Made by a program: the position numbers and the translations under genes
Shown here: positions 394 to 43,351 of the stretch, piece by piece
How the letters are laid out: the number at the start of each line of letters is the position of its first letter
How positions within the stretch are numbered: the first letter of the stretch is position 1
Origin: Gracilibacter sp. BRH_c7a
GTDB lineage: Bacteria; Bacillota; Desulfitobacteriia; Desulfitobacteriales; Syntrophobotulaceae
Direction of reading: 5' to 3'
DNA length: 51,559 bases
Assembly (NCBI GenBank): GCA_001516055.1
Contig: LOEZ01000086.1
Location: 1-51,559, forward strand
Notes under the pieces: model-generated
Database searches by the model: none
What the model saw: only the letters and a program-made list of their open reading frames with translations
What the model was told of the DNA's origin: nothing

Positions 394-1389
394 ATGGTAA
401 CTATCAAAGACGTTGCAAAACATGCCAATGTTTCAATCACAACTGTTTCTAGAGTACTTAACCAAACTGAACATAGCGTCAATTCTGAAACAAGAGAAAG
501 AGTTCTCAACGCCATTAAGGAATTGAGGTTTTATCCCAATGCCATGGCTCGCGGACTTCATCTTAATAAAACCAAGACTATTGGTTTAATTGTTCAAGAT
601 ATCTCTAACCCATACTATCCTAGCATAGTTCGTGGGGTGGAGGACGCTGCTCAAGAACTAGGATACACAGTAATACTTGCTAATGCTTATCGTTCTAGAG
701 AAAGAACTACAAAATATCTAAATGTACTTAGAGAAAAAAGAGTTGATGGAATAATATTTACAGGCGGTGGAGCAGTTAAAGATGCAGCAGAAGATAATTT
801 CTTCGAACGCAATCCTGTCTCAACCGTTGTAATCGGCAAGTCTTTCAATGCCAAAATACCTTCAGTCCAAGTCAATAATGTTCAGGCATCCCGGGAAGCG
901 TGCGAACATTTAATTCGGCAAGGACATAGGCAAATAGTAACCGTTACCGGACCAGAAGATTCCACTACAGCTATTGATCGGCTCGAAGGCTATCGACAGG
1001 CTTTGATGGCTAATGGGATAGACTATAGAGAAGAGTTAGTCCTAAGGTGCAACTTTGAATTTGATGAAGGATACAAGGCTGTAGAAAAATTTCTTGATGT
1101 AAGTAATGATAAGGCAACCGCTGTTTTTGCCCAAAATGACATGATGGCCATTGGAATCATGAAAGCGCTTCAGGAAAAAGGACTCAAAGTACCCGAAAAT
1201 GTCGCAGTTATCGGTTTTGATAATATCCCGCTTGCTTCATTTGTAACTCCTATGCTGTCCACAGTAGCTGTACCAATTTACGAACTAGGAAGAACTGCAA
1301 TGAGAATCATGTCTGACCTTCAATCTGGTCACGAAATTTCAAGAATTACAACACTTCCGACAAAGCTATTGTTAAGGCAATCCTGTTAA
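394..1389 (+). CDS. LacI family transcriptional regulator
   Basis: A 331-residue LacI/GalR repressor. The N-terminal helix-turn-helix (residues about 3-25, TIKDVAKHANVS...TVSRVLN) is followed by the hinge helix (PNAMARGL) and a periplasmic-binding-protein-like effector domain (about 60-330) starting TIGLIVQDISNPYYPSI. The length is normal. The ATG start puts the HTH at the usual position, but the G-rich ribosome site (372-378) is about 15 nt away, longer than ideal. Three operators lie just upstream and the creatininase and aldolase genes follow on the same strand, so it is the likely local regulator of the catabolic cluster. The effector is unknown, probably a sugar or sugar-acid-like ligand. 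Confidence 0.9.
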   Translation: MVTIKDVAKHANVSITTVSRVLNQTEHSVNSETRERVLNAIKELRFYPNAMARGLHLNKTKTIGLIVQDISNPYYPSIVRGVEDAAQELGYTVILANAYRSRERTTKYLNVLREKRVDGIIFTGGGAVKDAAEDNFFERNPVSTVVIGKSFNAKIPSVQVNNVQASREACEHLIRQGHRQIVTVTGPEDSTTAIDRLEGYRQALMANGIDYREELVLRCNFEFDEGYKAVEKFLDVSNDKATAVFAQNDMMAIGIMKALQEKGLKVPENVAVIGFDNIPLASFVTPMLSTVAVPIYELGRTAMRIMSDLQSGHEISRITTLPTKLLLRQSC

Positions 1390-1416: not shown

Positions 1417-2274
1417 ATGGTTATGAGACATAATCTTCTGGAATGTGCATTTACAGATGCAATCGAATGGTTCAAAAAAACTGATACTGTAATGGTACCT
1501 GTCGGCAGTTGCGAAAAGCATGGTGCTCATGTTCCCCTCGGAACAGACAGCTTTACAACAATCAACGTTGCTGAGAGAGCTGCTAAAATAGCTGATTGCC
1601 CTTACACTCCTCTTATGCCTTTCGGCTATTCTCCTCATCACATGGGAAGATGCGGAGAAGGTGCTGGTACAGTAACACTCTCTGCTGATACTTATCGTGC
1701 AGTTCTTACTGATATTGCTCGCAGTTTAATCTATCATGGTGCTAATAAAATTGTCTTCGTTACTCATCATGGTTCCAACACCAAACCAATTGACGAATTT
1801 ATGCGTCAAATCCGTTATAAATATGGTGCTTTTGTGGCATTCTATAAAACACCAACTGAAAGAGAATGTGAAGTTGTTAAAGGTATTTTGGAAGGACCTC
1901 CTGAAGAAACACCAGGTTGGCATGCTGGCGAAATGGAAACTGCTCAAATGATGGCACATGACATGAGTCTTGTTGACATGAGCCGTGCTGTTAACGACAG
2001 AGCACATGCTCCTAAGTGGATGGGTGACAAGTTCTCCAAAATTGACGGAACCATCACTGTTAAATTCGGTGGATCCGAAAACATCTATGTACCTATGGAA
2101 CATCATGAGTACAGCGACCATGCTACAATCGGAAATCCTTTCCGCGGTACTCCTGAAAAAGGCATTGCTCTTTTCGAAAAAGAAGCAGAACATCTTGCTG
2201 CTTTCATTGAAGAAGTTAGAAAGTTCCCATTCAAAGTCAAAGACGAAGATCGTCAATTCCCAGAAAGAGCATAA
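1417..2274 (+). CDS. Creatininase family protein, copy 1
   Basis: A 285-residue member of the creatininase/amidohydrolase family, metal-dependent enzymes that open cyclic amides or cleave formamide-type bonds. Family metal-binding signatures are visible: EKHGAHVPLGTD near residues 33-44, THHGSN near 115 and HAGEMETA near 170. GGAGGT precedes the ATG at the right distance. It follows the LacI gene by 27 nt and precedes the aldolase gene, so it is probably in their operon. A second copy at 12365-13222 differs at only about 18 residues. The true substrate is not creatinine for certain; the context (aldolase, sugar isomerase-like, RidA) suggests a step in degrading an imported acid, lactam or lactone. 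Confidence 0.85.
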   Translation: MVMRHNLLECAFTDAIEWFKKTDTVMVPVGSCEKHGAHVPLGTDSFTTINVAERAAKIADCPYTPLMPFGYSPHHMGRCGEGAGTVTLSADTYRAVLTDIARSLIYHGANKIVFVTHHGSNTKPIDEFMRQIRYKYGAFVAFYKTPTERECEVVKGILEGPPEETPGWHAGEMETAQMMAHDMSLVDMSRAVNDRAHAPKWMGDKFSKIDGTITVKFGGSENIYVPMEHHEYSDHATIGNPFRGTPEKGIALFEKEAEHLAAFIEEVRKFPFKVKDEDRQFPERA

Positions 2275-2296: not shown

Positions 2297-2329
2297 GGTG
2301 CAACCCGGGGTTCTCCCATGGGTTGTACC
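2297..2329. other. Intercistronic hairpin
   Basis: GGTGCAACCC (2297-2306) pairs with GGGTTGTACC (2320-2329) with one G-U pair, with a second G/C-rich pairing possible inside the loop. There is no U tract, so it is not a classical terminator. It lies between the creatininase and aldolase genes and could protect the upstream message from exonucleases or modulate downstream expression. Confidence 0.45.
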
Positions 2330-2355
2330 AAGAGCGGACCTATGGAGGGTATTTA

Positions 2356-2955
2356 ATGAACATTGACATGAACGTCGTAAACAAATTGCGTAAGGATCTT
2401 GAAGAAGTCAGTAAAAAAATATTTGCTCGTGGTCTTACATCAGGCCAAAGTGGAAATCCAAGTGCCCGTGTTCCAGGATATCCTGATCAAGTACTTATTA
2501 AGGCCAGTGGCAAATGTTTTGGTGATGTCTGTGAAAATGATTTTGTATTAGTAGATCTCGACGGTAATGTTCTTGATGGAAATGCACGTCCTTCCAAAGA
2601 GGTAAAATTCCACTGTGGAATTTATAAAGTACGACCAGAAGTCAATGCTATCGTACATGGACATTCCCCTTATGCAACTGCATATGCAACTGCAAAAGGT
2701 GAGATGCCTGTTGTTACTGCCGCAGCCGAAGCGGGTCTCAATAAAGTTGGGATAGTCGGATTTGCACTGCCAGGTTCTGATGAGCTTGCTGAGATGGTAA
2801 TCAAAGTATTTGATGAAGATAAGACACTTAAAGCGGCTGTCTTAGATAAACATGGATTCGTAACTCTTGGAGATGATATCCATAAAGCTTACTATCTTGG
2901 AGATGTCCTTGAAGACAATGCCAAAACAGCATCAATAATGGCTTCATATAAATAG
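2356..2955 (+). CDS. Class II aldolase/adducin family protein
   Basis: A 199-residue protein of the class II aldolase family (fuculose-1-phosphate aldolase type), metal-dependent lyases that split phosphorylated sugars or decarboxylate keto-acids. It shows GQSGNPSARV near the N-terminus, the SKEVKFH stretch with the catalytic-type Glu, the HGHSPYA zinc-binding pair, and a later DKHG histidine. The ATG at 2356 is chosen over an in-frame upstream one (2323) because GGAGGG sits 6 nt before it. It is the last gene of the LacI-creatininase-aldolase run and is followed by a terminator-like hairpin. The substrate is unknown. Confidence 0.85.
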   Translation: MNIDMNVVNKLRKDLEEVSKKIFARGLTSGQSGNPSARVPGYPDQVLIKASGKCFGDVCENDFVLVDLDGNVLDGNARPSKEVKFHCGIYKVRPEVNAIVHGHSPYATAYATAKGEMPVVTAAAEAGLNKVGIVGFALPGSDELAEMVIKVFDEDKTLKAAVLDKHGFVTLGDDIHKAYYLGDVLEDNAKTASIMASYK

Positions 2956-3021: not shown

Positions 3022-3167
3022 GTTAAAAATTTTTATCTAATATGTCAGAATCTTAAAAAAATACTTGTATTCAGACTAATATCACAAATTTTTATATAAC
3101 GATAGCGATAATTTTTTATTTATACTAGTTCATGCATGTTTTGAATACGGGTAAAGGAGGAAAATCA

Positions 3168-4085
3168 ATGCAAGGTTCGATGTACGAGTACATGAAAATT
3201 GGAATCGTTCACTTTAAAGCTTTTCCGGAATGTGTAAATGGAGTAGGCCCTTTTGAGGAAACAGTAAGCAAACTATGTGAGGATGATTTTTTTACCGCTA
3301 TCGAAATGGGTACTATTAAAGATGTTCAACAGCGACAAGAGGTGAAAAAATTACTTGACCAGTCCGGATTGGAGGTCGTCTACGCTACCCAACCTGTAAT
3401 GTTTCCAAACAAACTTAGCCTAAACCATTTGGATAATGGGGAGAGAAACAAAGCGATTAAAGCGGTGTTCAACTGCTTAAAGGAAGCTTATGATATCGGT
3501 GCTACAGCTGTCAGAATTCCTGCTGGTAAAGATCCAGGTCCTGAAAAAAGAGAAGAGGCTAAAAAACTTTTAATAGACTCATTCTCTCAAATCTTGGAGA
3601 AAGCAAAAGAATACGGCAATCCTCTTATTACTTTAAAAATATTCGATAGAGATATTGATAAAGAATCTTTGATAGGACCAGCTCCAGATGCCTTAGAGAT
3701 TGCTGAAGCCCTCGCACCTAGTTATGATAGATTTGGCTTACTAACGGATCTTTCTCATTTTCCTCTCTTGGGAGAAGAGATAGAATATACGCTTACTACC
3801 TTGCAAAAGTATCTGAAAGCTTTTCAGATAGGGAATTGTGTTATGAAAGATCGCCTTAATCCAATGTATGGAGACTTGCAGCCGAGATTTGGAGTACCTG
3901 GTGGAGAAGTAGATATGTTGATGGTCAGCAAATATTTCAGGACGCTAGCCGATCTTAATCTCATTGGTAAAGAGACAAGGCCTGTAATGAGTGCGGAAGT
4001 CCGTCCTTTGCTAGCCGGGGAAACTTCAGAAATCGTCATCGCCAACACCAAACGCGTCTATAAGGAAGCTTGGGCGCTGGCCTAA
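3168..4085 (+). CDS. Sugar phosphate isomerase/epimerase-like TIM barrel protein
   Basis: A 305-residue protein of the xylose-isomerase-like TIM barrel superfamily (AP endonuclease 2 fold), which includes sugar epimerases, isomerases and dehydratases. Visible barrel landmarks are FFTAIEMG after the first strand, AVRIPAGKDPG, LLTDLSHFPLLGEE (metal-site Asp/His region), and GDLQPRFGVPGGEVD near the C-terminus. The ATG at 3168 is preferred over one at 3132 because AAAGGAGG lies 7 nt upstream. It is separated from the next gene by 24 nt, so the two are probably co-transcribed. A carbohydrate or sugar-acid isomerisation role is inferred; no specific subfamily was recognised. Confidence 0.7.
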   Translation: MQGSMYEYMKIGIVHFKAFPECVNGVGPFEETVSKLCEDDFFTAIEMGTIKDVQQRQEVKKLLDQSGLEVVYATQPVMFPNKLSLNHLDNGERNKAIKAVFNCLKEAYDIGATAVRIPAGKDPGPEKREEAKKLLIDSFSQILEKAKEYGNPLITLKIFDRDIDKESLIGPAPDALEIAEALAPSYDRFGLLTDLSHFPLLGEEIEYTLTTLQKYLKAFQIGNCVMKDRLNPMYGDLQPRFGVPGGEVDMLMVSKYFRTLADLNLIGKETRPVMSAEVRPLLAGETSEIVIANTKRVYKEAWALA

Positions 4086-4109
4086 AAATGTTAGACAGGA
4101 GTGAAATCG

Positions 4110-5336
4110 GTGGCCCACAAGTCTATTGCAATTATCGTAACAGCAGATACCAAAGAAGCTGAAGCAAGGTTTTTGAATGAATATATCGAGGCTCAGGGGT
4201 TTAATGCTCCTGTTATAGATGTTAGTACCAGGCACCCTCATGATTATAAAGTAGCCTATTGTCGGGAAGATGTATGTAAGTTAGGAAATGTAGAGTATAA
4301 AGATTTATGTAACTTACGCAGAGATAATATGATGAAAACAATGGGTGAAGGTTCGGCGAAAATTCTGCTGGATCTTTATGAAAAAAATGAATTAGCCGGG
4401 GTTTTAGCAGTTGGAGGAAATCAAGGTACCGCGATCGCTTCCATAGCTATGCGTGCTCTCCCTATAGGAGTACCAAAGCTCATTGTTTCAACGGTTGCTT
4501 CTGGGTATGTTAGACCCTATGTAGAATATAAAGATATTATTATGATGTTCTCAGTCTCAGATATTCTCGGTGGAGCAAATACTGTCAGCAGGACAATCTT
4601 AACTAATGCGGCTGGCGCTGTTATGGGGATGGCTCAATATGGTCAGCCTCTAACAAGAGGAGATAAGCCGGTTATTGCTACCACTGCTTTTGGAAATACC
4701 GATGCAGCGGTCAATCAAGCTAGGGTGATACTGGAGGAGAAAGGATATGAAGTAATTGCCTTTCACGCCTCTGGAGCAAGTGGATCTGCAATGGAGTATC
4801 TGATTGAGCAGGGATATGTTCAGGGAGTATTAGACATAACCACTCACGAACTCCTTGGAGAGGTTTTCGGAGATGACATCTATACTCCTTTAAGGCCTAG
4901 ACTAGAAGAAGCGGGCAAGAGAGGAATACCTCAAGTTATTGTTCCAGGTGCAATTGAGTATTTCTGTTTCGGCGGACCTGATACTGTACCGGAAAAATAT
5001 TTAAACAGAAAGACCCATTACCATAATCCATACAATACTAATATACGGGTTACCAAGGAAGAAGCAGAGAAGACCGGAGAAGTTATGGCCCAGAAACTTA
5101 ATAAAGCTAAGGGCCCGGTAGTTGTCCTGATTCCAATGAAAGGGTTTTCCGAGAACGGTAGAGAGGGAAATGTACTGTATGAACCTGAAACGGATGAGGT
5201 ATTCGTTAAGTCTCTAGAAAAACACATAGATTCTAGAGTGAAGATTATCAAAATTGCTGCCAACATAAACGATAAGGAATTTTCTGATAAGGCAGCTCAA
5301 ATAATGCATGATCTTATGTTAGAAGTACAGAAATAG
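4110..5336 (+). CDS. Tm-1-like ATP-binding domain protein (UPF0261)
   Basis: A 408-residue UPF0261/Tm-1-like protein, a two-domain family of unsettled enzymatic function, found in plants as the Tm-1 resistance protein N-terminal half and in bacteria in catabolic clusters. The start IAIIVTADTKEAEARFL, the GVLAVGGNQGTA turn, STVASGYVRPYVEYKDI, and the C-terminal HETTH-like region VLDITTHELLGEVFG with PGAIEYFCFGGPDT match the family pattern. GTG at 4110 has AGGAG 8 nt upstream; an in-frame GTG at 4101 overlaps that site and is less likely. It lies between the TIM-barrel and dehydrogenase genes, and is probably part of the same degradation pathway. Confidence 0.8.
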   Translation: MAHKSIAIIVTADTKEAEARFLNEYIEAQGFNAPVIDVSTRHPHDYKVAYCREDVCKLGNVEYKDLCNLRRDNMMKTMGEGSAKILLDLYEKNELAGVLAVGGNQGTAIASIAMRALPIGVPKLIVSTVASGYVRPYVEYKDIIMMFSVSDILGGANTVSRTILTNAAGAVMGMAQYGQPLTRGDKPVIATTAFGNTDAAVNQARVILEEKGYEVIAFHASGASGSAMEYLIEQGYVQGVLDITTHELLGEVFGDDIYTPLRPRLEEAGKRGIPQVIVPGAIEYFCFGGPDTVPEKYLNRKTHYHNPYNTNIRVTKEEAEKTGEVMAQKLNKAKGPVVVLIPMKGFSENGREGNVLYEPETDEVFVKSLEKHIDSRVKIIKIAANINDKEFSDKAAQIMHDLMLEVQK

Positions 5337-5394: not shown

Positions 5395-6468
5395 ATGAGT
5401 CACGTAATTCCTGAAAAAATGAAAGCTTTAGTTTTATTTGGTAAAGATGATTTTCGTGTTGTAAATGATAAGCCTGTTCCCAAGCCAGGTCATGGTGAGG
5501 TCTTAGTAAAAGTTGAAGCATGTGGTATCTGTGGAACAGATGTTAAGATTATTACCAAAGGTATGCCTAAAATGCCACCATATGGAGAATTTACTCAAGG
5601 ACACGAATGGACAGGCACTGTTGTTGCGCTTGGTGAAACGGTTGATGAATTTGAGGTTGGTGACAGAGTAGCTATTGAGGCTCACAAGGGATGCGGCCGT
5701 TGTCAGAACTGTATCGAAGGATTATACACAAGCTGTTTAAACTATGCTCAAAAAGGTCAAATAGCATCCGGAATGACTCGTGACGGTGGTTTTGCAGAAT
5801 ATGCCGTTCATCATATTAATGCCATTTACAAGATCCCTGATAACGTTGACTTTGTACAAGCTACTTATGTAACTACTCTAGGTTGTGCTCTATGGGCACT
5901 TGATACGAGTGGCGGGTATATAGCTGGAGACACAGTGCTCATTACCGGACCTGGTCCGATAGGTCTTTCTATGGTACAAGCCTGCAAATCCGTTGGAGCA
6001 GAGAAGATTATTCTAGTTGGAACCAAAAATGACAGATTAGAAATTGGTAAGAGTGTTGGGGCTACCCATACAATCAATGTAAATGAAGTTGAAGATCCTT
6101 TAGCTGCTGTAATGGAAATCACTGGTGGTCGTGGTTGTGAAAGAACCTATGAATGTGCCGGAAATGATTCTTCCTTTGATCTCTGTCTGAAATCAACCAT
6201 GCGTGGTCACGTCATGACTCTGGTTTCTTTCTATAAGCAACCGGTTACTGCCGCTTTTGATTATGCAGTGCTTAACGCGATTAGCATTAAGACTGTTCGT
6301 GGAGAAGGTGGAAACAACTGTAAGAGAGCACTCTCTCTAATGAGCCAAGGTAAAATAGATACCAGCCGTATCCTTACTCATACCTTCCCCTTGGATGAGT
6401 TTGCAACAGGGTATGATTACTTTGTCAACAGAAAAGACGGAGCTATGAAGGTTGTCATCACTCCTTAA
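5395..6468 (+). CDS. Zinc-dependent medium-chain alcohol dehydrogenase
   Basis: A 357-residue medium-chain dehydrogenase/reductase similar to sorbitol, threonine and galactitol-phosphate dehydrogenases. The GroES-like N-terminal half has catalytic-zinc residues in CGICGTD (about 43-49) and GHEW, and the structural-zinc cysteines in GCGRCQNCIEGLYTSC. The NAD(P)-binding Rossmann fold begins at GPGPIGLSMVQ (about 185). CTAGGAGGT precedes ATG by 7 nt. It probably oxidises a polyol or hydroxyacid in the pathway encoded upstream. The sequence does not settle which alcohol it uses. Confidence 0.85.
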   Translation: MSHVIPEKMKALVLFGKDDFRVVNDKPVPKPGHGEVLVKVEACGICGTDVKIITKGMPKMPPYGEFTQGHEWTGTVVALGETVDEFEVGDRVAIEAHKGCGRCQNCIEGLYTSCLNYAQKGQIASGMTRDGGFAEYAVHHINAIYKIPDNVDFVQATYVTTLGCALWALDTSGGYIAGDTVLITGPGPIGLSMVQACKSVGAEKIILVGTKNDRLEIGKSVGATHTINVNEVEDPLAAVMEITGGRGCERTYECAGNDSSFDLCLKSTMRGHVMTLVSFYKQPVTAAFDYAVLNAISIKTVRGEGGNNCKRALSLMSQGKIDTSRILTHTFPLDEFATGYDYFVNRKDGAMKVVITP

Positions 6469-6722: not shown

Positions 6723-7730
6723 GTGAAAACAAGTAAAATTATGGTTATCGTACTCACAGTACTATTGGCGATTACAATGTTGGCAGGATGTAGTAGTACA
6801 CCTGCAGAAAAACCACCTGCAGACCAACCAGTAGAAACAACATTCCCAGAAAAATCAATTGACTTGACCATTCTTTTCGGTGCCGGTGGTGCGGCTGACG
6901 TAATTGGTCGTAAGCTTGCTGATGGAGCTGCTGAAAAACTTGGGAAGCCAATAGTTGCCAATGTTAGAACTGGTGGCGGTGGAGCTGTTGGTTATCAGTA
7001 TGTTCTTGGACAAGATCCAGATGGTTATAACATAGTATGGAACTCAACTTCTATCTGTGTTACCTATCATCAAGGGAATATGCCAGCAGATCAAGACTTC
7101 AGTGCTTTCAGAGGAGTTGCTAAAATATCAGAAGAAGCAAGTGCAATAGCAGTGAAAGCTGATGCTCCTTGGAAGAACCTAGAAGAGTTTGTTGCCTATG
7201 CTAAAGCTAACCCTGGAAAAGTCACAGTTGCTAACAGTGGCGTTGGTTCTTTTAATCACCTGACTGCAGCAGCTATTGAAGATGCCCTTGGAGTACAATT
7301 CAAACATATCCCTCTAGACAGTAAAGAAAGTGTTACTGCCTTACTGGGTGGTAGAGTCGATGCTATGGTCAACATGGCTTTTGATGCTATTCCTCAGGTA
7401 GAAGCCGGTGAAATGAGAGCTCTTGCTATTGTCGGAACACAGCGTATAGATGCTATGCCAGATGTCCCTACAATGAAAGAACAAGGTTATGATGTTGATC
7501 TTCTCATGTGGAGAGGTATCGCTGTTCCTAAAGATACTCCTGACGAAGTTGTTCTTAAGTTACAGGATGCTTTCTTAGAATCAGCAAATAGTGATGAATT
7601 CAAAGAGTTTGCCAAGAAATATTCATTAACCGTTGCTCCTACTACAGGTGCTGAGTTTGATGCGTATATGGCAGAACAAGATAAGATGATTGCTGATCTT
7701 ATGGAAAAAATAGGTCTTAAGAAACAATAG
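6723..7730 (+). CDS. tctC: TctC-type tripartite tricarboxylate transporter binding protein, copy 1
   Basis: A 335-residue extracytoplasmic solute receptor of the tripartite tricarboxylate transporter (TTT) family. The signal peptide ends in a lipobox (LAGC, Cys about 23), so it is anchored outside the membrane. The Bug/TctC fold is recognised by TILFGAGGAADVIGRKLA, TGGGGAVGYQYV, VANSGVGSFNHL and FRGVAKISEE. The start is GTG with GGAGGGGAAACC upstream. It delivers a carboxylated compound to the TctA/TctB permease encoded at 9043-11081. A paralogue lies at 11281-12261. The ligand cannot be read from the sequence. Confidence 0.9.
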   Translation: MKTSKIMVIVLTVLLAITMLAGCSSTPAEKPPADQPVETTFPEKSIDLTILFGAGGAADVIGRKLADGAAEKLGKPIVANVRTGGGGAVGYQYVLGQDPDGYNIVWNSTSICVTYHQGNMPADQDFSAFRGVAKISEEASAIAVKADAPWKNLEEFVAYAKANPGKVTVANSGVGSFNHLTAAAIEDALGVQFKHIPLDSKESVTALLGGRVDAMVNMAFDAIPQVEAGEMRALAIVGTQRIDAMPDVPTMKEQGYDVDLLMWRGIAVPKDTPDEVVLKLQDAFLESANSDEFKEFAKKYSLTVAPTTGAEFDAYMAEQDKMIADLMEKIGLKKQ

Positions 7731-7800: not shown

Positions 7801-8946
7801 ATGATGGAGTTTCTCAATTCATTAACAGATGACGCTTACTCGGAGGGTGTTAAAATAGATCAATTCGTATTCTGTGCGGGTGCACGGCCTGTAGATCTTA
7901 AAACTGGAACAGTAATCAATGGTGATTTCAGGACTAAAGTTCGATGTACCCTAGATAATGTGAAAAGGGTTCTTCACCAGGCTAATGCATCCTTGGAGAA
8001 TGTTTTTAGCACTTATGTATACGTAAGAAATATGGCAGATCGTCCAATTGTAAATGAGGTTTTCAAAGAGTATTTTAAAGAAAGAAAATACCCGAATAGG
8101 GTGATAGTTGAGGTATCAAGGCTTTTGGACAATCAGGATATAGAGATTGTTTGTTCAGCTTATATGCCGAAAGCAGGAGAAGAAGTAAAGTATCTAACTA
8201 CTCAACAAGGACAGATACCCACAGGCCCGTTCAGTCAAGGAATCAAGATAGGGCAGTATGTTTTTTGTTCGGGAGTAAGGCCTATTGATTCTACTACTCA
8301 AAAGTTAGTAGTAGGTGATTTTCGCCAAAGAGTAAGACAATGCTTCGATAATTTGAAGGCAGTACTAGCAGAAGGCGAAGCTACTATGGATGATGTATTC
8401 ACTACTATTGTCTATGTCCGAAATATGGCAGATAGGCCTATTGTTAACGAGGTAACTAGAGAATATTTCAGGGAAGGTAACTTCCCTTTAAGGATAATAG
8501 TTGAGATCTCACGGCTTAATGAGGATCATGATCTGGAGATAGAATGCGCAGCTTATCTCGGAGCCAAAGACTTCTTAACTACCCGTAAAGGACAGGTTCC
8601 AACTGGACCATTCTCTCAAGGAGTTAAGATTGGCCATTATGTTTACTGTTCAGGTGTGCGTCCCATAGATCCAATAACTCAAAAACTGGTAGAAGGTGAT
8701 TTTGAAAAAAGAGTTTGCCAATGTCTTGATAACTTAGGGGCTATAATGGCAGAAGGTGGAGCTGACTTTTCCGATGTTTATACAACTACAGTCTATCTTA
8801 GGAACATGTCAAATTTGCCAACAGTTCATAAAGTATTTGCCAAGTACTTTGATGAGAACAGTTATCCAGTGAGGCATAATATTGAAATCAACAGGTTAAA
8901 TGAAGATCATGATATTGAGATAGCATGCTCTGCCTATTTAGAGTAA
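7801..8946 (+). CDS. Triple RidA (YjgF/YER057c) domain protein
   Basis: A 381-residue protein made of three consecutive RidA domains (about 1-127, 128-255, 256-381). RidA proteins are normally about 125 residues and form homotrimers that hydrolyse reactive enamines/imines. Each unit keeps the substrate-carboxylate Arg after a F/YP-x motif (R100, R231, R358) and the E-V/I-x-R-L strand. Repeats 2 and 3 open with TGPFSQG; repeat 1 lacks this stretch and begins more divergently. GGAGG lies 5 nt before the first of two ATGs. It lies between the TctC and TctA genes, so enamine or imine chemistry of the imported compound is likely. A single-chain pseudo-trimer is inferred. Confidence 0.9.
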   Translation: MMEFLNSLTDDAYSEGVKIDQFVFCAGARPVDLKTGTVINGDFRTKVRCTLDNVKRVLHQANASLENVFSTYVYVRNMADRPIVNEVFKEYFKERKYPNRVIVEVSRLLDNQDIEIVCSAYMPKAGEEVKYLTTQQGQIPTGPFSQGIKIGQYVFCSGVRPIDSTTQKLVVGDFRQRVRQCFDNLKAVLAEGEATMDDVFTTIVYVRNMADRPIVNEVTREYFREGNFPLRIIVEISRLNEDHDLEIECAAYLGAKDFLTTRKGQVPTGPFSQGVKIGHYVYCSGVRPIDPITQKLVEGDFEKRVCQCLDNLGAIMAEGGADFSDVYTTTVYLRNMSNLPTVHKVFAKYFDENSYPVRHNIEINRLNEDHDIEIACSAYLE

Positions 8947-9042: not shown

Positions 9043-10545
9043 TTGCTTGAATATTTGTCACAGGGACTAGGCATAGCCCTACAGTGGGAAAACATTCTTT
9101 TTATGTTCATTGGGACTATCCTTGGATTGGTTTTTGCATCAATTCCGGGATTGACTTTCAGTACCGCCCTAATTCTTATGATTCCTGTAACCTTTGGACT
9201 TGATCCAGTACCTGCAATCTCCGTACTTTTAGGAGTATTCGCAGGTGGTATGTCTGGTGGATCTATATCTGCTATTCTTCTTGGTATCCCGGGCACGCCT
9301 TCTGCTGCAGCTACGGTTATTGACGGCTATGAGATGGCTAAGAGGGGCCAAGCGGGAAGAGCACTTGGTATGGCAGTTTATGCTTCGGTATTTGGTGGAA
9401 TTTTTAGCTTGCTAGTACTTATGCTGGTGGCGCCTCAATTAGCAAAGGTTGCCTTGAAATTCGGTCCAGCAGAGATATTTGCATTGGTTATATTTGGACT
9501 ATCAACAATTGTAAGCTTAAGTGGCACTTCATTGAACAAGGGTTTATTAGCTGGACTCTTCGGACTTTTGCTTACCACAGTCGGCTTAGATCCTGTTATG
9601 GGTTTACAACGTTATACATTCGGCCAATCATGGCTTATGATAGGGATAGGCATTATGCCAGTCATGATAGGGATGTTCGCTTTTCCTGAAATAATCGAGA
9701 CTTTTCAGAGAGCTAAGAACAATAAAGGCGTTAGCAAGGAGCCAACAGATAAACAGGTTGTAAAAGCATCTTTTCCAACGCTAAAAGAAATGAAGAGCAC
9801 GTTCCTATTAATGCTTAAATCTTCAGCCATTGGGACTGGACTGGGAGCGATTCCTGGAACAGGAGGACCGATAGCTTCTTTTCTTGCTTATGATCAGGCG
9901 AGGAGACAGAATCCAAGATGCGGAAAAGGAGCGATTGAAGGAGTAGGAGCTCCGGAGGCTGCTAATAATGGAGTTACCGGGGGCGCAATGATTCCACTTC
10001 TAACATTAGGGATACCCGGAGATAGTGCAACGGCCATTATGTTAGGGGCTTTCTTAATACATGGGTTAGCACCGGGACCTTTATTGTTTCAAAACTATGG
10101 AGACCTTGTTTATGCAATCTTCATAAGTATTCTTATTATCTATGTCATGGTTTTGGTTATTCAATTCTTTGGGATTCGTCTATTTGTAAAGGTGCTCGAC
10201 TTCCCTAAAGTTAACTTGATGATTGCCATACTGGCGATGACAGTAGTTGGCTCGTTTGCGATTAACCTTAACTTCGGAGACGTAATAATCATGTTCTTTG
10301 CCGGATTACTGGGATACTTAATGAAGAGATATGGGTTCCCAATTACTCCTTTAATTCTAGCTTTAGTACTTGGTTATACCATTGAGGATAATTTCCGGAA
10401 AGCATTAGTATATTCTGATGGGAGTCTAGCCATATTCGTGCAAAGTCCGGTTAGTTTAGTTTTCCTTATACTTGCGCTCATAATGCTTCTGGCACCTCTA
10501 ATTAAACCACTGCTTGAAAAAAGGGCCAAAGCAGATAAGGCTTAA
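9043..10545 (+). CDS. tctA: Tripartite tricarboxylate transporter permease TctA
   Basis: A 500-residue large membrane subunit of a TTT transporter with about ten or more hydrophobic segments. The family motifs PGLTFSTALILMIPVTFG, GVFAGGMSGGSISAILLGIPG and the second-half repeat GAIPGTGGPIASFLAYDQAR, EAANNGVTGGAMIPLLTLGIPG are present; the two halves show the internal repeat typical of the family. The start is TTG with TAAGGAGG 9-12 nt upstream. It moves the substrate captured by TctC together with the small subunit TctB next door, driven by an ion gradient in characterised members. Confidence 0.95.
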   Translation: MLEYLSQGLGIALQWENILFMFIGTILGLVFASIPGLTFSTALILMIPVTFGLDPVPAISVLLGVFAGGMSGGSISAILLGIPGTPSAAATVIDGYEMAKRGQAGRALGMAVYASVFGGIFSLLVLMLVAPQLAKVALKFGPAEIFALVIFGLSTIVSLSGTSLNKGLLAGLFGLLLTTVGLDPVMGLQRYTFGQSWLMIGIGIMPVMIGMFAFPEIIETFQRAKNNKGVSKEPTDKQVVKASFPTLKEMKSTFLLMLKSSAIGTGLGAIPGTGGPIASFLAYDQARRQNPRCGKGAIEGVGAPEAANNGVTGGAMIPLLTLGIPGDSATAIMLGAFLIHGLAPGPLLFQNYGDLVYAIFISILIIYVMVLVIQFFGIRLFVKVLDFPKVNLMIAILAMTVVGSFAINLNFGDVIIMFFAGLLGYLMKRYGFPITPLILALVLGYTIEDNFRKALVYSDGSLAIFVQSPVSLVFLILALIMLLAPLIKPLLEKRAKADKA

Positions 10546-10607: not shown

Positions 10608-11081
10608 ATGAAGCAAAACCGAATAATAGCTACTATTTTGTTGGTTTTCATTATTTTTTGGGCTTATCTAACTACCAAACTACCTGAAACAACCATGCTA
10701 GGGGAACCTGGGCCTAAGTTTTTTCCTGCTGTAGTGTTAGCCTTAATGGCTATACTAAGTATATCTCTCTACTTCACAAAGGATTTGGAAAAAACAGAAG
10801 TGATAGAAGCAGATGAGATTGACCAAGTAACAGAGCCAGAAGAAGAATTACCAATGAATGGTGCTTTAAAACTCTTTGCAGTATTCTTTGCTGGGATAAT
10901 TCTTATATATTTTGTGGGATTCAATATAGGATTAATCGTAAGCCTAAGTGCAATGCTCTGGATGATAGGATGGAGATTGTTTCCACGTGCCATTCTCTTC
11001 TCAGCTTCGGTGACACTGGTTATTTACTTTTTGTTTTCCTGGGCATTGAAAATTCCTTTACCCAAGGGTACTCTATTTTAA
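10608..11081 (+). CDS. tctB: Tripartite tricarboxylate transporter small subunit TctB
   Basis: A 157-residue membrane protein with four hydrophobic segments (about 6-20, 37-54, 84-100 and 105-150 containing two). The GPKFFPAVVL motif after helix 1 is characteristic of TctB. An acidic loop (residues 60-80, rich in E and D) separates the halves. AAAGGAGAGG precedes the ATG. It follows tctA by 62 nt and is followed by a strong terminator, closing the transporter operon. Confidence 0.9.
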   Translation: MKQNRIIATILLVFIIFWAYLTTKLPETTMLGEPGPKFFPAVVLALMAILSISLYFTKDLEKTEVIEADEIDQVTEPEEELPMNGALKLFAVFFAGIILIYFVGFNIGLIVSLSAMLWMIGWRLFPRAILFSASVTLVIYFLFSWALKIPLPKGTLF

Positions 11082-11184: not shown

Positions 11185-11280
11185 AATTATATAAAGGATA
11201 GATTTTCTATGTCTAAAAAGAGAGTTTGTGGAAGAAACTAAACAATGTGAATAACAATTTAGTCAAGGGAGGTGTCAAAA

Positions 11281-12261
11281 ATGAGAATAAAAAAGTTACT
11301 TGCTCTGGTACTGGCAGTTATTTTGATTTTGGTAACGGGATGCACGGCTGCTGATAATGAGCAAAAACCTGAATATCCTACCAAAGTTATTGACATGTCG
11401 GTTTTATTTGGTGCCGGTGGCGGTGCAGATGTGGTAGGCAGAAAACTTGCAGATCTGGCTTCTAAGGAATTAGGTCAACCTATTGTTGCGAACAATCGAG
11501 TAGGTGGTGGTGGTGCAGTCGGATATCAGTATGTTTTAAACGCTGAACCTAATGGGTACAGTATTGTCTGGAATTCAACTTCTATTTCAACTTCTTATCA
11601 TGCAGGTAACATGCCAGAGGGACAAGATTACAGTGCTTTTCGTGGGGTAGCTAAGGTTACGGATGAAGCATCAGCGCTAGCTGTGAAAGCAGATGCTCGC
11701 TGGGAAACTATCGAAGATTTTATCGCCTATGCCAAAGCTAATCCTGAGCAAGTTACAGTAGCAAACAGTGGAGTTGGCTCATTTAACCATTTAAACGCAG
11801 TATTGATTGAACAGGCTACAGGAGTAAAATTCAAACATATTCCAATGGATGCTACAACAAGCACCACATCATTGATAGGCGGCAGGGTGGATGCCATAGT
11901 AAATATGGCTTTTGATATCATCCAGCAAGAACAAGCGGGTAACGTAAGGGCATTGGCAGTGGTTGCCGATACACGTCAAGATTCATTACCGGATGTTCCA
12001 ACATTTAAAGAACGGGGCTTCGATGCTGATTTAACTATGTATAGAGGGATAGCAGTTCCTAAAGAGACACCAGACGATGTAGTAAAAATTCTCGAAGATG
12101 CTTTTATAAAAGCGGGTAAAAGTGATGAATTCAAAGAATTTGCAGGAAAATATGGTGTAACAGTAAATGTATTGGGTGCGAAAGAATTTGAAGCTTTAAT
12201 GAAAGAACAGGATGAGCAGGTCGCTAAAGCAATGGACTTAATTGGAATGAAAAAGCAGTAA
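11281..12261 (+). CDS. tctC: TctC-type binding protein, copy 2
   Basis: A 326-residue lipoprotein paralogue of the protein at 6723-7730, roughly two thirds identical by eye, sharing VLFGAGG, GGGGAVGYQYVL, WNSTSI and VANSGVGSFNHLN. The signal peptide ends LVTGC. The ATG at 11281 is chosen because GGGAGG stands 7-8 nt before it; an upstream in-frame GTG (11272) overlaps this site. No second TctA/TctB follows, so it probably shares the permease or works as an alternate receptor. It is followed after 103 nt by the second creatininase gene. Confidence 0.9.
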   Translation: MRIKKLLALVLAVILILVTGCTAADNEQKPEYPTKVIDMSVLFGAGGGADVVGRKLADLASKELGQPIVANNRVGGGGAVGYQYVLNAEPNGYSIVWNSTSISTSYHAGNMPEGQDYSAFRGVAKVTDEASALAVKADARWETIEDFIAYAKANPEQVTVANSGVGSFNHLNAVLIEQATGVKFKHIPMDATTSTTSLIGGRVDAIVNMAFDIIQQEQAGNVRALAVVADTRQDSLPDVPTFKERGFDADLTMYRGIAVPKETPDDVVKILEDAFIKAGKSDEFKEFAGKYGVTVNVLGAKEFEALMKEQDEQVAKAMDLIGMKKQ

Positions 12262-12364: not shown

Positions 12365-13222
12365 ATGGTACTAAGACATAATCTTTTAGAAGGCGCATTT
12401 ACAGATGCAATCGAATGGTTTAAGAAAACTGATACTGTAATGGTACCTGTAGGGAGTTGTGAAAAACATGGAGCCCATGTTCCACTAGGAACGGATAGTT
12501 ATACAACCATCAATGTTACCGAGAGAGCAGCGAAAATTGCGGATTGTCCTTACACTCCTCTCATGCCTTTTGGCTATTCCCCTCATCATATGGGTAGAAT
12601 GGGAGAAGGCGCAGGAACAATTACTTTATCTGCTAACACGTATCGTGCTATGCTCACGGATATAGCTCGAAGCTTAATCTATCATGGTGCCAATAAAATA
12701 ATTTTTGTCACTCATCATGGTTCTAACACGAAACCTATCGATGAATTCAACCGCCAAATCCGATATAAATACGGTGCTTTTGTAGCCTTCTATAAGACCC
12801 CGACAGAAAGAGAATGTGAAGTTGTATCTGGTATCTTAGAAGGTCCACCTGAAGAGACCCCTGGCTGGCACGCTGGTGAAATGGAAACTGCTCAGATGAT
12901 GGCTCATGATATGAGTTTGGTTGATATGAGCAGAGCGGTTGATGACCGAGCGCATGCTCCTAAGTGGATGGGACCAAACTTTTCTAAGATGGATGGTACG
13001 ATTACAGTTAAATTCCGTGGCTCTGAGAATATCTATGTGCCAATGGAGCACCACGAATATAGTGACCATGCTACTATTGGTAATCCTTTCCGAGGTACAC
13101 CAGAAAAAGGATTGGCTTTATTCGAGAAAGAAGCTGAACACCTTGCAGCTTTTATTGAGGAAGTAAGAAAGTTTCCATTCAAAGTCAAAGACGAAGATCG
13201 TCATTTTCCCGAAAGAGCATAG
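12365..13222 (+). CDS. Creatininase family protein, copy 2
   Basis: A 285-residue close paralogue of the protein at 1417-2274. By manual comparison only about 18 positions differ (about 94% identity), none in the metal-binding motifs EKHGAHVPLGTD, THHGSN and HAGEMETA. At DNA level many codons differ silently, so the duplication is not very recent or the DNA has been under purifying selection. GGAGGTG precedes the ATG by 10 nt. It follows the second TctC gene, forming a TctC-creatininase pair. Confidence 0.85.
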   Translation: MVLRHNLLEGAFTDAIEWFKKTDTVMVPVGSCEKHGAHVPLGTDSYTTINVTERAAKIADCPYTPLMPFGYSPHHMGRMGEGAGTITLSANTYRAMLTDIARSLIYHGANKIIFVTHHGSNTKPIDEFNRQIRYKYGAFVAFYKTPTERECEVVSGILEGPPEETPGWHAGEMETAQMMAHDMSLVDMSRAVDDRAHAPKWMGPNFSKMDGTITVKFRGSENIYVPMEHHEYSDHATIGNPFRGTPEKGLALFEKEAEHLAAFIEEVRKFPFKVKDEDRHFPERA

Positions 13223-13383: not shown

Positions 13384-13836
13384 ATGTCTGAGAGTTTTAA
13401 ATCTAAGGAATTTGCAAAACCAATGATTGGAGATCAAGAGATAGGCCGCTGGAAAAAGAAAGCCAAGCAATACATAGACAATCCAAGTAAGGTAAAAGAT
13501 TTACTGACTAAAGCAATATCAAAAGCTGAAAATAATAAACAGCTGGCTATTTTTAGTAATCTATGGGACAAAATACATCTTCTGTTTTCTCTAATTAAAG
13601 ATTGGTTAAACGGGGGTTATAAGGATATATCGAAATCGGCCATGTTATTAATTATTGCTGGACTGATATATTTCGTTTCACCTATCGATATTATTCCAGA
13701 CTGGATTATAGGCCTTGGATTTGCTGATGACATAGCATTCTTAGCTATGATAATAAATCAGTTAGATAAAGAGCTTATAAAATATAAATTATGGAAGACG
13801 ACAGATACTGATCCTGAAAATAACGCAATAGAATAG
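13384..13836 (+). CDS. YkvA family protein (DUF1232)
   Basis: A 150-residue protein of the YkvA/DUF1232 family, whose function is unknown. The characteristic segment is the membrane-like IIAGLIYFVSPIDIIPDWI followed by GFADDIAFLAMIINQL (about 80-125). The N-terminal 70 residues are charged and helical. GAAAGGAAAACAT precedes the ATG. It stands after the terminator at 13251-13288, and the following esterase gene begins 62 nt downstream, possibly in the same transcript. Confidence 0.8.
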   Translation: MSESFKSKEFAKPMIGDQEIGRWKKKAKQYIDNPSKVKDLLTKAISKAENNKQLAIFSNLWDKIHLLFSLIKDWLNGGYKDISKSAMLLIIAGLIYFVSPIDIIPDWIIGLGFADDIAFLAMIINQLDKELIKYKLWKTTDTDPENNAIE

Positions 13837-17918: not shown

Positions 17919-19238
17919 ATGCTGGATACTTATTTAAGTAATCTGAACGATTCAGGCCGAAATCTTGTTGGGAATTTGCACCAATTATTAAAGAAGAAGA
18001 TATGGGCTAAAATATTGCTTGGAATGATACTTGGTATCGGAATAGGATTGCTGCTAAGTCCCAGTATGGGATTTGTAGATGAATCTATCAGTTTTCCTTT
18101 AGGGAATTGGTTGGCTTTACCGGGGCGTATCTTTCTAAGCTTAATCCAGATGATTGTGGTTCCGCTAGTCATCGCATCGATCATACGTGGTTTAGCTGCC
18201 AGTGAAAGCATGGAACAATTGCGAAAAATGGGATTCGGGTTAGTAATCTACTTTTTGGCGACCACTACCGTAGCCATAACCATCGGCATGTCTGTCGCTT
18301 TGCTTATAAAGCCTGGCGAGCTTATTGACACTTCATTACTTAATATCACAACTTCAATCTCAGAGGTGGAGAATACTACAGAAATGATGAGTATGTCCTC
18401 ACTTCCTGATGTCATAACCAATATTCTGCCTGACAACCCACTTAGTGCCATGGTCGAGATGCAAATGCTTCAAATCGTTATTTTCTCTATTTTGTTTGGG
18501 GTAGCACTCGTATCTTTAAAACACGAGTCTTCTAAACCTATGTTAGACATCCTAGCTTCTATTCAGGAAGTCAGTATGACTGTTGTTCGATGGGCGATGG
18601 TGATTGCTCCCATTGCTGTATTCGGGCTACTTGCCCAGATCACCATCAGAATTGGGGTAGACGCCATCTTAGGGATGGCGATCTACGTCTTGACAGTTCT
18701 ACTTGGATTATTTATTTTAATTTGTTTTTATTTCCTTATTATATTTATTACCAATAAGAAATCCCCTCTATGGTTTATAAGGAATGTAAGGGACGTACAG
18801 TTACTGGCCTTCTCTACGTCGAGTTCGGCCGCTGTTATGCCTCTTTCCATAAAGACCGCACAAGAAAACCTAAAAGTTAGACCCGCTATAGCTCAGTTTC
18901 TGGTACCCCTAGGAGCAACCATCAATATGGATGGGACTGCACTCTATCAAGGGGCTGCAACCGTATTCTTAGCTCAGGTATATGGAGTGGATTTAAGTGT
19001 TACAGCTTTATTATTGGTCATTGTAACTGCTGTCGGGGCTTCCATCGGGACGCCAGCAACTCCTGGGGTAGGAATAATCATTTTGGCTATGGTTCTACAA
19101 AGTGTAGGGATACCTACTGCGGGGATAGCTCTAATAATAGGTGTGGATAGAATTTTAGATATGGCCAGGACTGCAGTCAATGTTTCCGGTGATTTAACTG
19201 CTTCGTTGGTTATGAATAGATGGATAAAGCAGAATTAA
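17919..19238 (+). CDS. Dicarboxylate/amino acid:cation symporter (DAACS family)
   Basis: A 439-residue secondary transporter of the glutamate/aspartate/C4-dicarboxylate (GltP/DctA) family. Multiple membrane segments, the SLIQMIVVPLVIASII motif, the serine-rich reentrant loop FSTSSSAAVMPL, and the NMDGTALYQGA motif in helix 7 (cation binding) are clear. AAAGGAGG precedes the ATG by 7 nt. A short extra N-terminal cytoplasmic segment (about 25 residues) is present. Its stop codon shares TTAA with the stop of the converging gene. Confidence 0.9.
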   Translation: MLDTYLSNLNDSGRNLVGNLHQLLKKKIWAKILLGMILGIGIGLLLSPSMGFVDESISFPLGNWLALPGRIFLSLIQMIVVPLVIASIIRGLAASESMEQLRKMGFGLVIYFLATTTVAITIGMSVALLIKPGELIDTSLLNITTSISEVENTTEMMSMSSLPDVITNILPDNPLSAMVEMQMLQIVIFSILFGVALVSLKHESSKPMLDILASIQEVSMTVVRWAMVIAPIAVFGLLAQITIRIGVDAILGMAIYVLTVLLGLFILICFYFLIIFITNKKSPLWFIRNVRDVQLLAFSTSSSAAVMPLSIKTAQENLKVRPAIAQFLVPLGATINMDGTALYQGAATVFLAQVYGVDLSVTALLLVIVTAVGASIGTPATPGVGIIILAMVLQSVGIPTAGIALIIGVDRILDMARTAVNVSGDLTASLVMNRWIKQN

Positions 19239-21847
19239 GCAAAGAGACATATCACCTTCTGTTTCATGGTATCAGCAATGACTTGGAGATTCTTGCTGTT
19301 TTCTTTACCGACATCAATAACTTTAATCACATCTTGGAGAGAAGCTTTTCGTGGAACCAATCTAGGCAAGATATTTTCATATTCAGCAAGCAATTCTGTT
19401 TGAAATACTACTCCATTCCGCTCGGGGTATAGAGCAACATAAAAAATCTCACTCTCAACCAGATCCTGAAAGAAGTGCGTGCCAAAGGATACTTCAGGTA
19501 GATAGCCTGCTTTAGGATATGCTATTTCTCCTAGGATAGTCATGTTATTGATTTCAGAGAATAACACGGGAACTCCTAAGGATGGGGTACTGGTTCCCCA
19601 GCGTCCAGGTCCTAGTAAGAGCATGGATATTTCTTTTTTATCAGCCATGTGATTGATTCTTCCAATCGTTCTGGCTATTTCGTATTTACCAGACTCACTT
19701 AAAGAGCTATAGGCCCAGGGATCAATGTATATAATCCTTTGAATATATTGATGGATATTTCCTCCCATGAAACTATTGTTAATTTCGAAGAGGATTTTTT
19801 CGGGAGCTACCTTTTTAGGGAATTCCACTTTGCTTTTCAGCCCTTTGACTTGAAGAGGCCTGCATTGCAATAAATTAACATGGAAAATTCCATTATCTCT
19901 GAAGTTTACAGTGAATTCGATGTCCACAGGGTATTGGTAAACTTTTTCAAGAGATTTGAGCATTTTTTGTAGTACTTTGGCAAAAGACGTAGTTGATAAT
20001 AAACCTTCAAAGGTCATTATCCAAGACTCGCGAGGGGTAATATTCAATTCCTTCATTCTTTTCTCTGCCACGTAATCGCGCTCAGCGAACAAGGATAGAT
20101 TTAAACCCAGACTCTCCTCTATCAGAGTTTGGACGGGGAGGCTTTGCATATCATTTTCGGAGATATTCAATAAATCTACCTTATACTGAGAAAACTGCTT
20201 AAAATCTTCAATATTGGAATAAGGTTTCGATAAAGGTTTGTCCAGGGCTATAACTCGAGCATAGTCGCCTGCCATCCTATTAACTGCTCGGGTACCTAGA
20301 CCAGTAACGATTCGAAGCATCCCCGCCTGAGGGTCCATGTCTTTTTCCCAGACGTAAGTATTATAAGAATATCCAACTCCAGCAAAATCAGGCAAAAAGT
20401 AATGTTTTCTGTAGCAACCGGAAACACGCTGTACCAGTAAGGCCATCTGTTCATCTTGATCAGCCAGACCTCTTTTAAGTCGATACATTAAGGCATCTTC
20501 ATTCATAGTACTAGCAAAAATCTTGCGTACAGCCTCTTCAAATTGACCATACCTTTCTTCCAAAGTACCTTGATTGATACAGAATATGCTTTCGTATTTT
20601 CCGGCAAAAGAATTTCCGAAACCATCCTCCAGAAGACTACTGGAACGGACAATTATGGGGGATTGTCCGAAGTATTCAAGCATTCTCAGAAATTGGTTCT
20701 TGATGTCCTGAGAGAATAAGCCGCTTAACAACTTTGTCTTAAGCGTCGTGGCCATGGAAGAATAGTTCTCGCCTTTTCTTTGCTCCATTCTAAGTTTCCA
20801 GAGGCCGTTTTGAACCAGATAAGTATAAAAAACATCAGAGCCAATATAGAAAGAATCATGGGGTTCAAGGAGTTGGTTATAATCAGTTTCAGAATCTTTA
20901 CTAAGAATTTTTCGGGCTAATAACATTCCTACCGCTTTACCTCCGATGAAACCTGAACCAATCAATCTAGCCTTAATCTGGAGCATATCCTCCAGAGAGA
21001 AGTTATCGGTTAGTAGTCTAACGAATCTTTCATCCTTGCTTAGAATATTCTTACAAAGTTTTTCCACGAGCTCTTTTTCTTCTGTATGAGGGATTTCTCC
21101 CGATCTAACCTGTTGATACACATCCGAGGCATCTAGGAACATTCTGTCCCAATAATCTAGATTTCTTCTTGGGCTGTCATAACCGTGCTGAGATAAATCA
21201 GCGAAAAGTCTGGATGTATCAGCACTGGTCGTCAGTGGAATAAACTTTTCTCCTTTTTCCATATGAGGGAGGAACATAGTAGGAGTAGACCTATTCCATA
21301 CTTTTAAGGGATGAACATAGGTTTGATTTTTAAACTCATAAACATCTAATAAGACCTGAGTTGTTTCTCTGATAGCAGTAATAGTTTCAAAAGAGTTGGT
21401 ATATTTAAGAATCGCAAAATATGCTACAGTGTTAAGTTCAAACAGGTAAGGACAGGTAATAAGAAAAAAGTTACCTATCATCAAATCTGTTGCCCAAACG
21501 TAGAGCAAATCTGATAGACAGTCGAACACATAGAAAACATCTCTTCCCTCCGAAGTAATAATTTGATGTACCTGGGTAGAGAAGGATTCGAATCCATTGC
21601 TGGCATCGATATTATATATAACCACACTCTCTTGATCTGTGATTATAGGGTCATGGGAGGCGAACCTCATATAGACCACTCTTCTCCCAGAAGAGAGACT
21701 ATTTTCCACATAGGGTGATACGAACTTCTTATAATCAGATATATCAGTTACCTGTAAGACAACATTATCACCCATGCGGAGAGAATCTATGATTTCATCA
21801 AGACCTGGAAAGCCTGTGGTGACCCTTTCGCGATCATCCATTATCAT
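19235..21847 (-). CDS. PEP/pyruvate-binding domain protein with degenerate KaiC-like N-terminus
   Basis: A protein of about 870 residues. The N-terminal 200 residues look RecA/KaiC-like (TTGFPGLDEIIDSLRMGDNVVL) but no Walker A GKT is visible. Residues about 310-680 form a pyruvate-phosphate-dikinase N-terminal ATP-grasp domain (GFIGGKAVGMLLARKIL, VRSSSLLEDGFGNSFAGKYES, QCRPLQVKG). The C-terminal part contains LLGPGRWGTSTPSLGVPV and GTHFFQDLVES. There is no phosphohistidine domain (no SHAAIVARE), so full PEP synthase chemistry is not encoded in this chain. The start at 21847 has AAGGA 7 nt upstream; 21850 is an alternative. Confidence 0.75.
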   Translation of the reverse strand: MIMDDRERVTTGFPGLDEIIDSLRMGDNVVLQVTDISDYKKFVSPYVENSLSSGRRVVYMRFASHDPIITDQESVVIYNIDASNGFESFSTQVHQIITSEGRDVFYVFDCLSDLLYVWATDLMIGNFFLITCPYLFELNTVAYFAILKYTNSFETITAIRETTQVLLDVYEFKNQTYVHPLKVWNRSTPTMFLPHMEKGEKFIPLTTSADTSRLFADLSQHGYDSPRRNLDYWDRMFLDASDVYQQVRSGEIPHTEEKELVEKLCKNILSKDERFVRLLTDNFSLEDMLQIKARLIGSGFIGGKAVGMLLARKILSKDSETDYNQLLEPHDSFYIGSDVFYTYLVQNGLWKLRMEQRKGENYSSMATTLKTKLLSGLFSQDIKNQFLRMLEYFGQSPIIVRSSSLLEDGFGNSFAGKYESIFCINQGTLEERYGQFEEAVRKIFASTMNEDALMYRLKRGLADQDEQMALLVQRVSGCYRKHYFLPDFAGVGYSYNTYVWEKDMDPQAGMLRIVTGLGTRAVNRMAGDYARVIALDKPLSKPYSNIEDFKQFSQYKVDLLNISENDMQSLPVQTLIEESLGLNLSLFAERDYVAEKRMKELNITPRESWIMTFEGLLSTTSFAKVLQKMLKSLEKVYQYPVDIEFTVNFRDNGIFHVNLLQCRPLQVKGLKSKVEFPKKVAPEKILFEINNSFMGGNIHQYIQRIIYIDPWAYSSLSESGKYEIARTIGRINHMADKKEISMLLLGPGRWGTSTPSLGVPVLFSEINNMTILGEIAYPKAGYLPEVSFGTHFFQDLVESEIFYVALYPERNGVVFQTELLAEYENILPRLVPRKASLQDVIKVIDVGKENSKNLQVIADTMKQKVICLFA

Positions 21848-22166
21848 CATCACATCCTTATACTTGATAGTCTCTGAATATAGAATAAGAAAAGCCTTTC
21901 CCGAGGCGGACAAACGTGTCGACAGGAAAAGGATTAACTAACATGTCTTGTCTTATTAGTTTATGATTCTATCAGATTATTTAATCGTATCATTATAATT
22001 TAAGTGTTGTCAATAAGGCTGCCTGCAAGGGGAATGAAAGTATACTGAATACTATTTTTTATAATTATTAGAGATACTATAAGAAACATCTCAGTTAGAT
22101 GATTAGAAGTATATTATGGGAATATAAACCGGAGATTTCTCTTAAAAACAAGGAGGCTGTATATTG
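21848..22166. other. Divergent intergenic region without gene
   Basis: An A/T-rich gap of about 320 bases between divergent genes. TATAAT occurs at 21994-21999 on the plus strand but no convincing -35 accompanies it. I see no hairpin terminator, repeat or small gene with a ribosome site. Confidence 0.5.
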
Positions 22167-40417: not shown

Positions 40418-40910
40418 TAAAAAAACTCCTTTAAACGGCAGACAATGCCACAGCATTTTTCACAAGTATAGCATGACAAAACCCAACAGGGAAAATATAA
40501 AATTTCTTGCTGGGTTTTGTCATGTATTATTTAATTTTCTGCTCCAAATTGGTAAATAAATCACTGTCAAAAAAATATCGTAAGCTGATTTGTGCCTTGC
40601 GCAGCAGGGTTGTTAAGCCAGCGAGGATCGTTAAAGTTTAAAATTATCTTATGTTGAGGGAAATAAAAAGAAAAAGCAAAAGGATTATTATCGATTCACA
40701 GCGAAATTACCAGGAAATAGCAAAAATGAAGAAGCAATAACTGTATGTCTGCACGAAGTACCCGAAATCAACAAATAAGCTATCTCATCTGAGGCATCGC
40801 GATAAACTGATTTGCCTCTGCAAATTCATGGTGAAAAAATAACCTAATCACCAGCGTTACATAAAGAACCCGATGATACTACCTTCATGAAAAATAACTG
40901 GAGTGAGTAT
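40418..40910. other. Intergenic region before cas3
   Basis: About 490 bases without a convincing gene. It contains the moxR promoter region on the minus strand: CATGACAAAACCCA (40472-40485) is repeated inverted as TGGGTTTTGTCATG (40511-40524), and TGCTATACT on the minus strand is an extended -10 there. Two loosely similar stretches (40575-40605 and 40794-40824, both with CTGATTTG) and an open stretch around 40690-40780 lack start and ribosome sites. Confidence 0.5.
40472..40524 (-). promoter_or_regulatory. Inverted repeat over moxR promoter
   Basis: Perfect 14-bp arms, 25 bp apart, with the extended -10 TGCTATACT abutting the inner arm on the minus strand. The arms are probably an operator for an unidentified regulator of the moxR-VWA pair. 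Confidence 0.5.
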
Positions 40911-43337: not shown

Positions 43338-43351
43338 AGGAGGGCGGGAAT

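Follow-up and report, generated by a model that had tools for sequence, protein, structure and literature searches.

Three RidA domains are joined in one chain in a 381-residue protein of Gracilibacter sp. BRH_c7a, whose gene lies in a conserved cluster of transporter and catabolic genes. We studied it in the 51,559-nucleotide contig LOEZ01000086.1, which is called the window here and is taken at its full length. The explanation that best accounts for our observations is that this protein, hereafter 3x-RidA, forms a single-chain pseudo-trimer and is most likely an imine or enamine hydrolase serving the pathway of its operon; we give this reading as a whole a probability of roughly two in three. 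The moderate confidence of the structural models, non-canonical pocket residues and the location of one homologue (in genome G001) outside the operon were counted against it.

The gene consists of 381 codons with no internal stop and starts at a tandem ATG preceded by an aaggagg sequence (Table 1). Pfam PF01042 (Ribonuc_L-PSP) matches the protein in three separate stretches (E 2e-82, 273.5 bits versus a cut-off of 27.3), as does NCBIfam TIGR00004, ‘Rid family detoxifying hydrolase’ (E 4.8e-79, 262.6 versus 106.25). Our own domain profile, whose seed included these very repeats, places the domains at residues 1–123, 128–254 and 255–381, with 186–200 bits each. The repeats share 50% (1 and 2), 42% (1 and 3) and 62% (2 and 3) identity in protein and only 54–63% in DNA, indicating an old triplication and no assembly artefact. 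The original prediction of three RidA units in a single chain is borne out by this clean frame with three full domains, and a frame error concealing three separate genes is ruled out by the same one-chain architecture, open in three genomes. Membership in narrower families was rejected by score for RutC (TIGR03610; 140.4 versus the equivalog cut-off of 169.1), PRK11401 enamine deaminase (168.4 versus the equivalog cut-off of 222) and chorismatase FkbO/Hyg5 (TIGR04444; 29.2 bits versus 325).

Three RidA domains fused in tandem is also the published definition of an architecture to which the protein conforms. Niehaus et al. 2015 (PMC4433059) named such fused proteins ‘3x-RidA’, with EF_0115 of Enterococcus faecalis as the example, termed them ‘presumably covalently linked trimer units’ and noted that RidA fusions of two or four domains are rarer. 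The covalent-trimer idea is therefore already in print; no further papers using the name were found in the literature searched.

Of 25 genomes searched in the bacterial family of the window, three encode the 3x protein at full length, namely the window’s own genome, a same-genus Gracilibacter sp. MAG (G010, 84% identity) and an uncultured Peptococcaceae MAG (G001, 67% identity), with the frame kept in both homologues. Against G010, all three domains are under purifying selection, with dN/dS values of 0.19 (domain 1), 0.07 (domain 2) and 0.10 (domain 3). Outside the family, no match was found at E ≤ 1e-38 in 82 genomes of the class and a sample of 398 genomes of the phylum, a threshold that leaves room for distant 3x proteins such as the Enterococcus one, and a sequence-pattern scan of genome contigs for wider relatives returned two loci only, the patterns being too specific. 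Phages and viral contigs gave no match and plasmids yielded only the distant E. faecalis protein, so that a phage or plasmid origin was rejected.

Within the family of the window, roughly a dozen genomes encode a two-domain Rid protein (2x-Rid) of 233–285 residues; two frames (in G017 and G018) match only weakly. These 2x proteins resemble 3x-RidA in belonging to the same lineage and, in several genomes, to the same operon, but have two domains, of which the first mostly lacks the loop and the second mostly lacks the arginine discussed below. In our domain tree, which is unrooted and gives no order of 2x and 3x forms, the domains of both fall into one group (99/96), within which domain 2 of the 2x proteins joins domain 3 of the 3x proteins (88/96), while the first two domains of the 3x proteins lie on separate branches. 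The three Enterococcus 3x-RidA domains group together at 100/100, amid canonical single RidAs. A joint clade of both 3x kinds is rejected (AU test, p = 0.00135), whereas a wider clade of 2x, 3x and Enterococcus domains passes (p 0.53). Since the domains of each 3x type cluster with others of the same chain or with their 2x relatives, at least two fusions most likely took place, the window-type fusion most likely being independent of the Enterococcus one; judged from sequence, 3x-RidA is an architecture and not a clade.

Our comparison with Enterococcus used an E. faecalis homologue (L013, 7938–9206), which may not be EF_0115 itself. The published protein and that of the window have in common three tandem RidA domains in a single chain and a proposed covalent trimer. 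In contrast, the E. faecalis homologue has Lys at the Arg105 position of domain 1 and Gln at the Glu120 position of all domains, suggesting that its chemistry may differ from that of RidA; it also lacks the G-x-R-P motif. Its gene neighbours encode an aminotransferase, an ornithine cyclodeaminase and PhzF, with no tct genes.

How the three domains pack was approached through AlphaFold, with an alignment of three rows for each run. The best of five models was of moderate confidence for the window protein (pLDDT 69.9, pTM 0.64) and for the G001 homologue (pLDDT 72.0, pTM 0.72), the other four of each run being poor. Each of the two best models matches chorismatases along its entire length (FkbO/Hyg5; PDB 5ag3, 5a3k, 4bps), which belong to the same fold family and are single chains arranged like a RidA trimer: the window protein matches 5ag3_C with Z 18.5 and the G001 homologue matches 5a3k_B with Z 20.4, each over 282 residues at an rmsd of 3.5 Å. 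The same whole-chain fold arrangement is thus predicted for 3x-RidA, although chorismatases share only 14–15% identity with it and it scores far below the cut-off of their family profile. From these whole-chain alignments, together with the published precedent, we infer a trimer-like packing. A crystal structure of a RidA trimer shows an intermolecular sheet, to which one subunit contributes its N-terminal strand and the adjoining subunit its C-terminal segment, with the active site located where the monomers meet (PMC7311433). With the termini adjacent, a linker of only a few residues can suffice to connect subunits where they stand. The model matches, this adjacency and the precedent favour, short of proof, a single-chain trimer, in which the active-site clefts would sit at the three domain–domain interfaces. 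Low confidence of the linker regions in both models would suit a chain whose domains stay apart, each trimerising instead with domains of other chains; we regard this as improbable, given that two separate predictions match a single-chain chorismatase over the whole chain, and that the linkers are only a few residues long where N- and C-termini are neighbours in the RidA trimer. The covalently built trimer originally proposed is therefore plausible by prediction and precedent, but it is not a new idea.

The active-site residues were placed by alignment with what we take to be the E. coli RidA sequence, on which the Arg105, Glu120 and Ile33 positions depend. R100, R231 and R358 align with Arg105, the residue that RidA requires to hydrolyse imines, in agreement with the carboxylate-binding arginine predicted for each repeat, and E115/E246/E373 align with Glu120; both residues have equivalents in every one of the nine domains that the three 3x homologues comprise. 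The domain fold and, mostly, Asn88 are likewise shared with canonical trimeric RidA (YjgF/UK114/TdcF). Unlike the single-domain canonical proteins, however, all nine 3x domains carry [SA]-G-[AV]-R in place of S-G-Q-[ITVL], with an extra arginine at the Ile33 position (R29/R160/R287 in the window protein), which is found in only some 2x second domains. Overall, the pocket deviates from canonical RidA at the Gln32, Ile33, Lys73 and Cys107 positions (Cys/Thr107 and Lys73 being replaced), and the reaction may therefore not be imine hydrolysis.

The starts of the repeats also differ, as had been noticed, with repeat 1 reading LTDDAYSEG where TGPFSQG would be expected; it retains Tyr (Y13) at the Tyr17 position, which is Phe in repeats 2 and 3. 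One loop per chain is degenerate, that of repeat 1 in the window protein and G010 and that of repeat 2 in G001, showing that the affected cleft is not fixed across the homologues. With one of three loops degenerate, the predicted non-equivalence of the active sites holds at the level of sequence. Domains 2 and 3 retain the complete RidA-like signature, and domain 1 keeps Arg, Glu and Tyr but not the recognition-loop core, so that one of the clefts has probably changed or lost its activity. Loss of the loop in domain 1 of the window protein, its degeneracy in domain 2 of G001 and the mostly loop-less first and arginine-less second domains of the 2x relatives could be read as a largely non-catalytic, regulatory or structural Rid assembly whose domains degenerate in turn. 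We consider this unlikely, because all three Arg and Glu residues are conserved among the 3x homologues and the low dN/dS values are accompanied by an intact domain 2 that is the most conserved of the three.

Table 1. The 3x-RidA gene, its domains and the surrounding gene cluster in the window.
Feature	Position	Strand	Remarks
LacI-type regulator	394..1389	+	opens the conserved cluster; synteny shared by G010 and G002
Creatininase-family hydrolase copy A, weakly IolN-like	1417..2274	+	
Class II aldolase	2323..2955	+	
Xylose isomerase-like TIM barrel	3132..4085	+	
UPF0261 protein	4101..5336	+	
Zinc alcohol dehydrogenase (Tdh/IolM-like, below equivalog cut-offs)	5395..6468	+	
TctC solute-binding protein 1	6723..7730	+	
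3x-RidA gene	7801..8946	+	381 aa; three PF01042 stretches; conserved in G010 and G001
Rid domain 1	7801..8184	+	aa 1–128; loop GPF lost; Tyr13, Arg29, Arg100, Glu115 retained
Rid domain 2	8185..8565	+	aa 129–255; loop TGPFSQG, Arg160, Arg231, Glu246; most conserved domain
Rid domain 3	8566..8943	+	aa 256–381; loop TGPFSQG, Arg287, Arg358, Glu373
TctA	9043..10545	+	
TctB	10608..11081	+	
TctC solute-binding protein 2	11272..12261	+	
Creatininase-family hydrolase copy B	12365..13222	+	94% aa identical to copy A

The 3x-RidA gene lies between a TctC gene and the TctA gene, as first described. G010 has the identical gene order from the regulator to TctB, followed by a second TctB-like frame at the contig end. 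Furthermore, multi-Rid genes recur in the operon of tct, UPF0261, alcohol dehydrogenase, creatininase and aldolase genes in five genomes (G000, G010, G001, G002 and G009); the equivalent operon of G002, and in part those of G001 and G009, has, in place of the 3x gene, a 2x-Rid gene that follows a TctA. Elsewhere, 2x genes adjoin a TctC, a homologous TIM barrel or, in two genomes, a class II aldolase, one of these two having a class V aminotransferase and a 2-hydroxyacid dehydrogenase upstream. By comparison, the G001 3x gene stands outside the tct operon, beside genes for a DegV-like protein and a two-component system. Four genomes that we presume to be Dehalobacter-like (G003–G006) carry 2x-Rid, and no UPF0261 homologue was found in them. 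The supposed tie to one imported substrate therefore holds only in part: multi-Rid genes recur in the tct operon, but the G001 3x gene and the Dehalobacter-like 2x genes depart from it. The dehydrogenase and hydrolases weakly resemble the inositol enzymes IolM and IolN, with scores below the equivalog cut-offs; this hints at a cyclitol or sugar-acid pathway, which we offer as a lead only. No literature joining RidA with UPF0261, creatininase and tct was found.

Some further features of the neighbourhood were noted. The two creatininase-family copies bracket the operon with 94% protein and 82% DNA identity, no gaps and unrelated flanks, and both are present in G002 (91–94%). A DUF1232 gene lies near a multi-Rid gene at L018, L057, L061 and L062 and in the window (13384–13836); this pairing, also seen in the Dehalobacter-like genomes without the tct operon, may predate the operon link. 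At locus L056 (416–4129), genes for a class V aminotransferase, a 2-hydroxyacid dehydrogenase, a class II aldolase and 2x-Rid stand in a row, the aminotransferase being a possible imine source. Elsewhere in the window, CRISPR-associated genes at 40887–45986 (Cas3-like helicase, Csd1), with more frames to about 48821, point to a type I-C system. Two genes have PPDK_N ATP-binding domains (19235–21913 and 31202–33583), with a PEP-utilizer mobile domain in the latter and none at the threshold used in the former.

For the hydrolase reading, the substrate is most likely an imine, an enamine or a comparable intermediate with a carboxylate, arising within the catabolic pathway of the operon or next to it, and the extra arginine beside each pocket Ser/Ala-Gly is expected to give a preference for a more acidic or oxygen-rich compound. 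The same neighbourhood, conserved with a TTT transporter, a LacI regulator, a dehydrogenase and hydrolases, could also speak for a specialised catabolic enzyme, in which a fused trimer was recruited to an operon step on an imported acid, as in chorismatase or 2-aminomuconate deaminase, and not for a detoxifying deaminase. The non-canonical pocket with its lineage-specific Arg and the predicted whole-chain fold match to chorismatase are in line with this; nevertheless, the Arg105 and Glu120 equivalents are kept in all domains, the 67% identical homologue is encoded outside the operon, 2x relatives exist in genomes lacking the UPF0261 pathway gene, and the chorismatase match concerns the fold only. 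We thus hold it to be doubtful, though the least improbable of the alternatives to the imine/enamine hydrolase. Slightly more speculative is the possibility that fusion freed the three clefts to diverge, giving a dedicated catabolic enzyme for the acid imported by the adjacent TTT transporter, with a second, lineage-specific pocket arginine and one cleft dispensed with. If true, it would represent a second route, parallel to chorismatase, from a fused Rid trimer to a specialised enzyme.

Beyond the published architecture, our analysis adds that this fusion most likely arose independently, that 2x relatives occur across the family, that the 3x domains carry a G-x-R motif, that the degenerate loop shifts between homologues and that multi-Rid genes are linked to the operon; it also lends the packing model-level support. 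Fusion of RidA trimers into a single chain has most likely happened on two or more independent occasions. The operon places a Rid protein in a candidate pathway, and the one-, two- and three-domain forms that coexist in the family, with their differently degenerate sites, provide a natural set for asking if each of the three RidA clefts is required.
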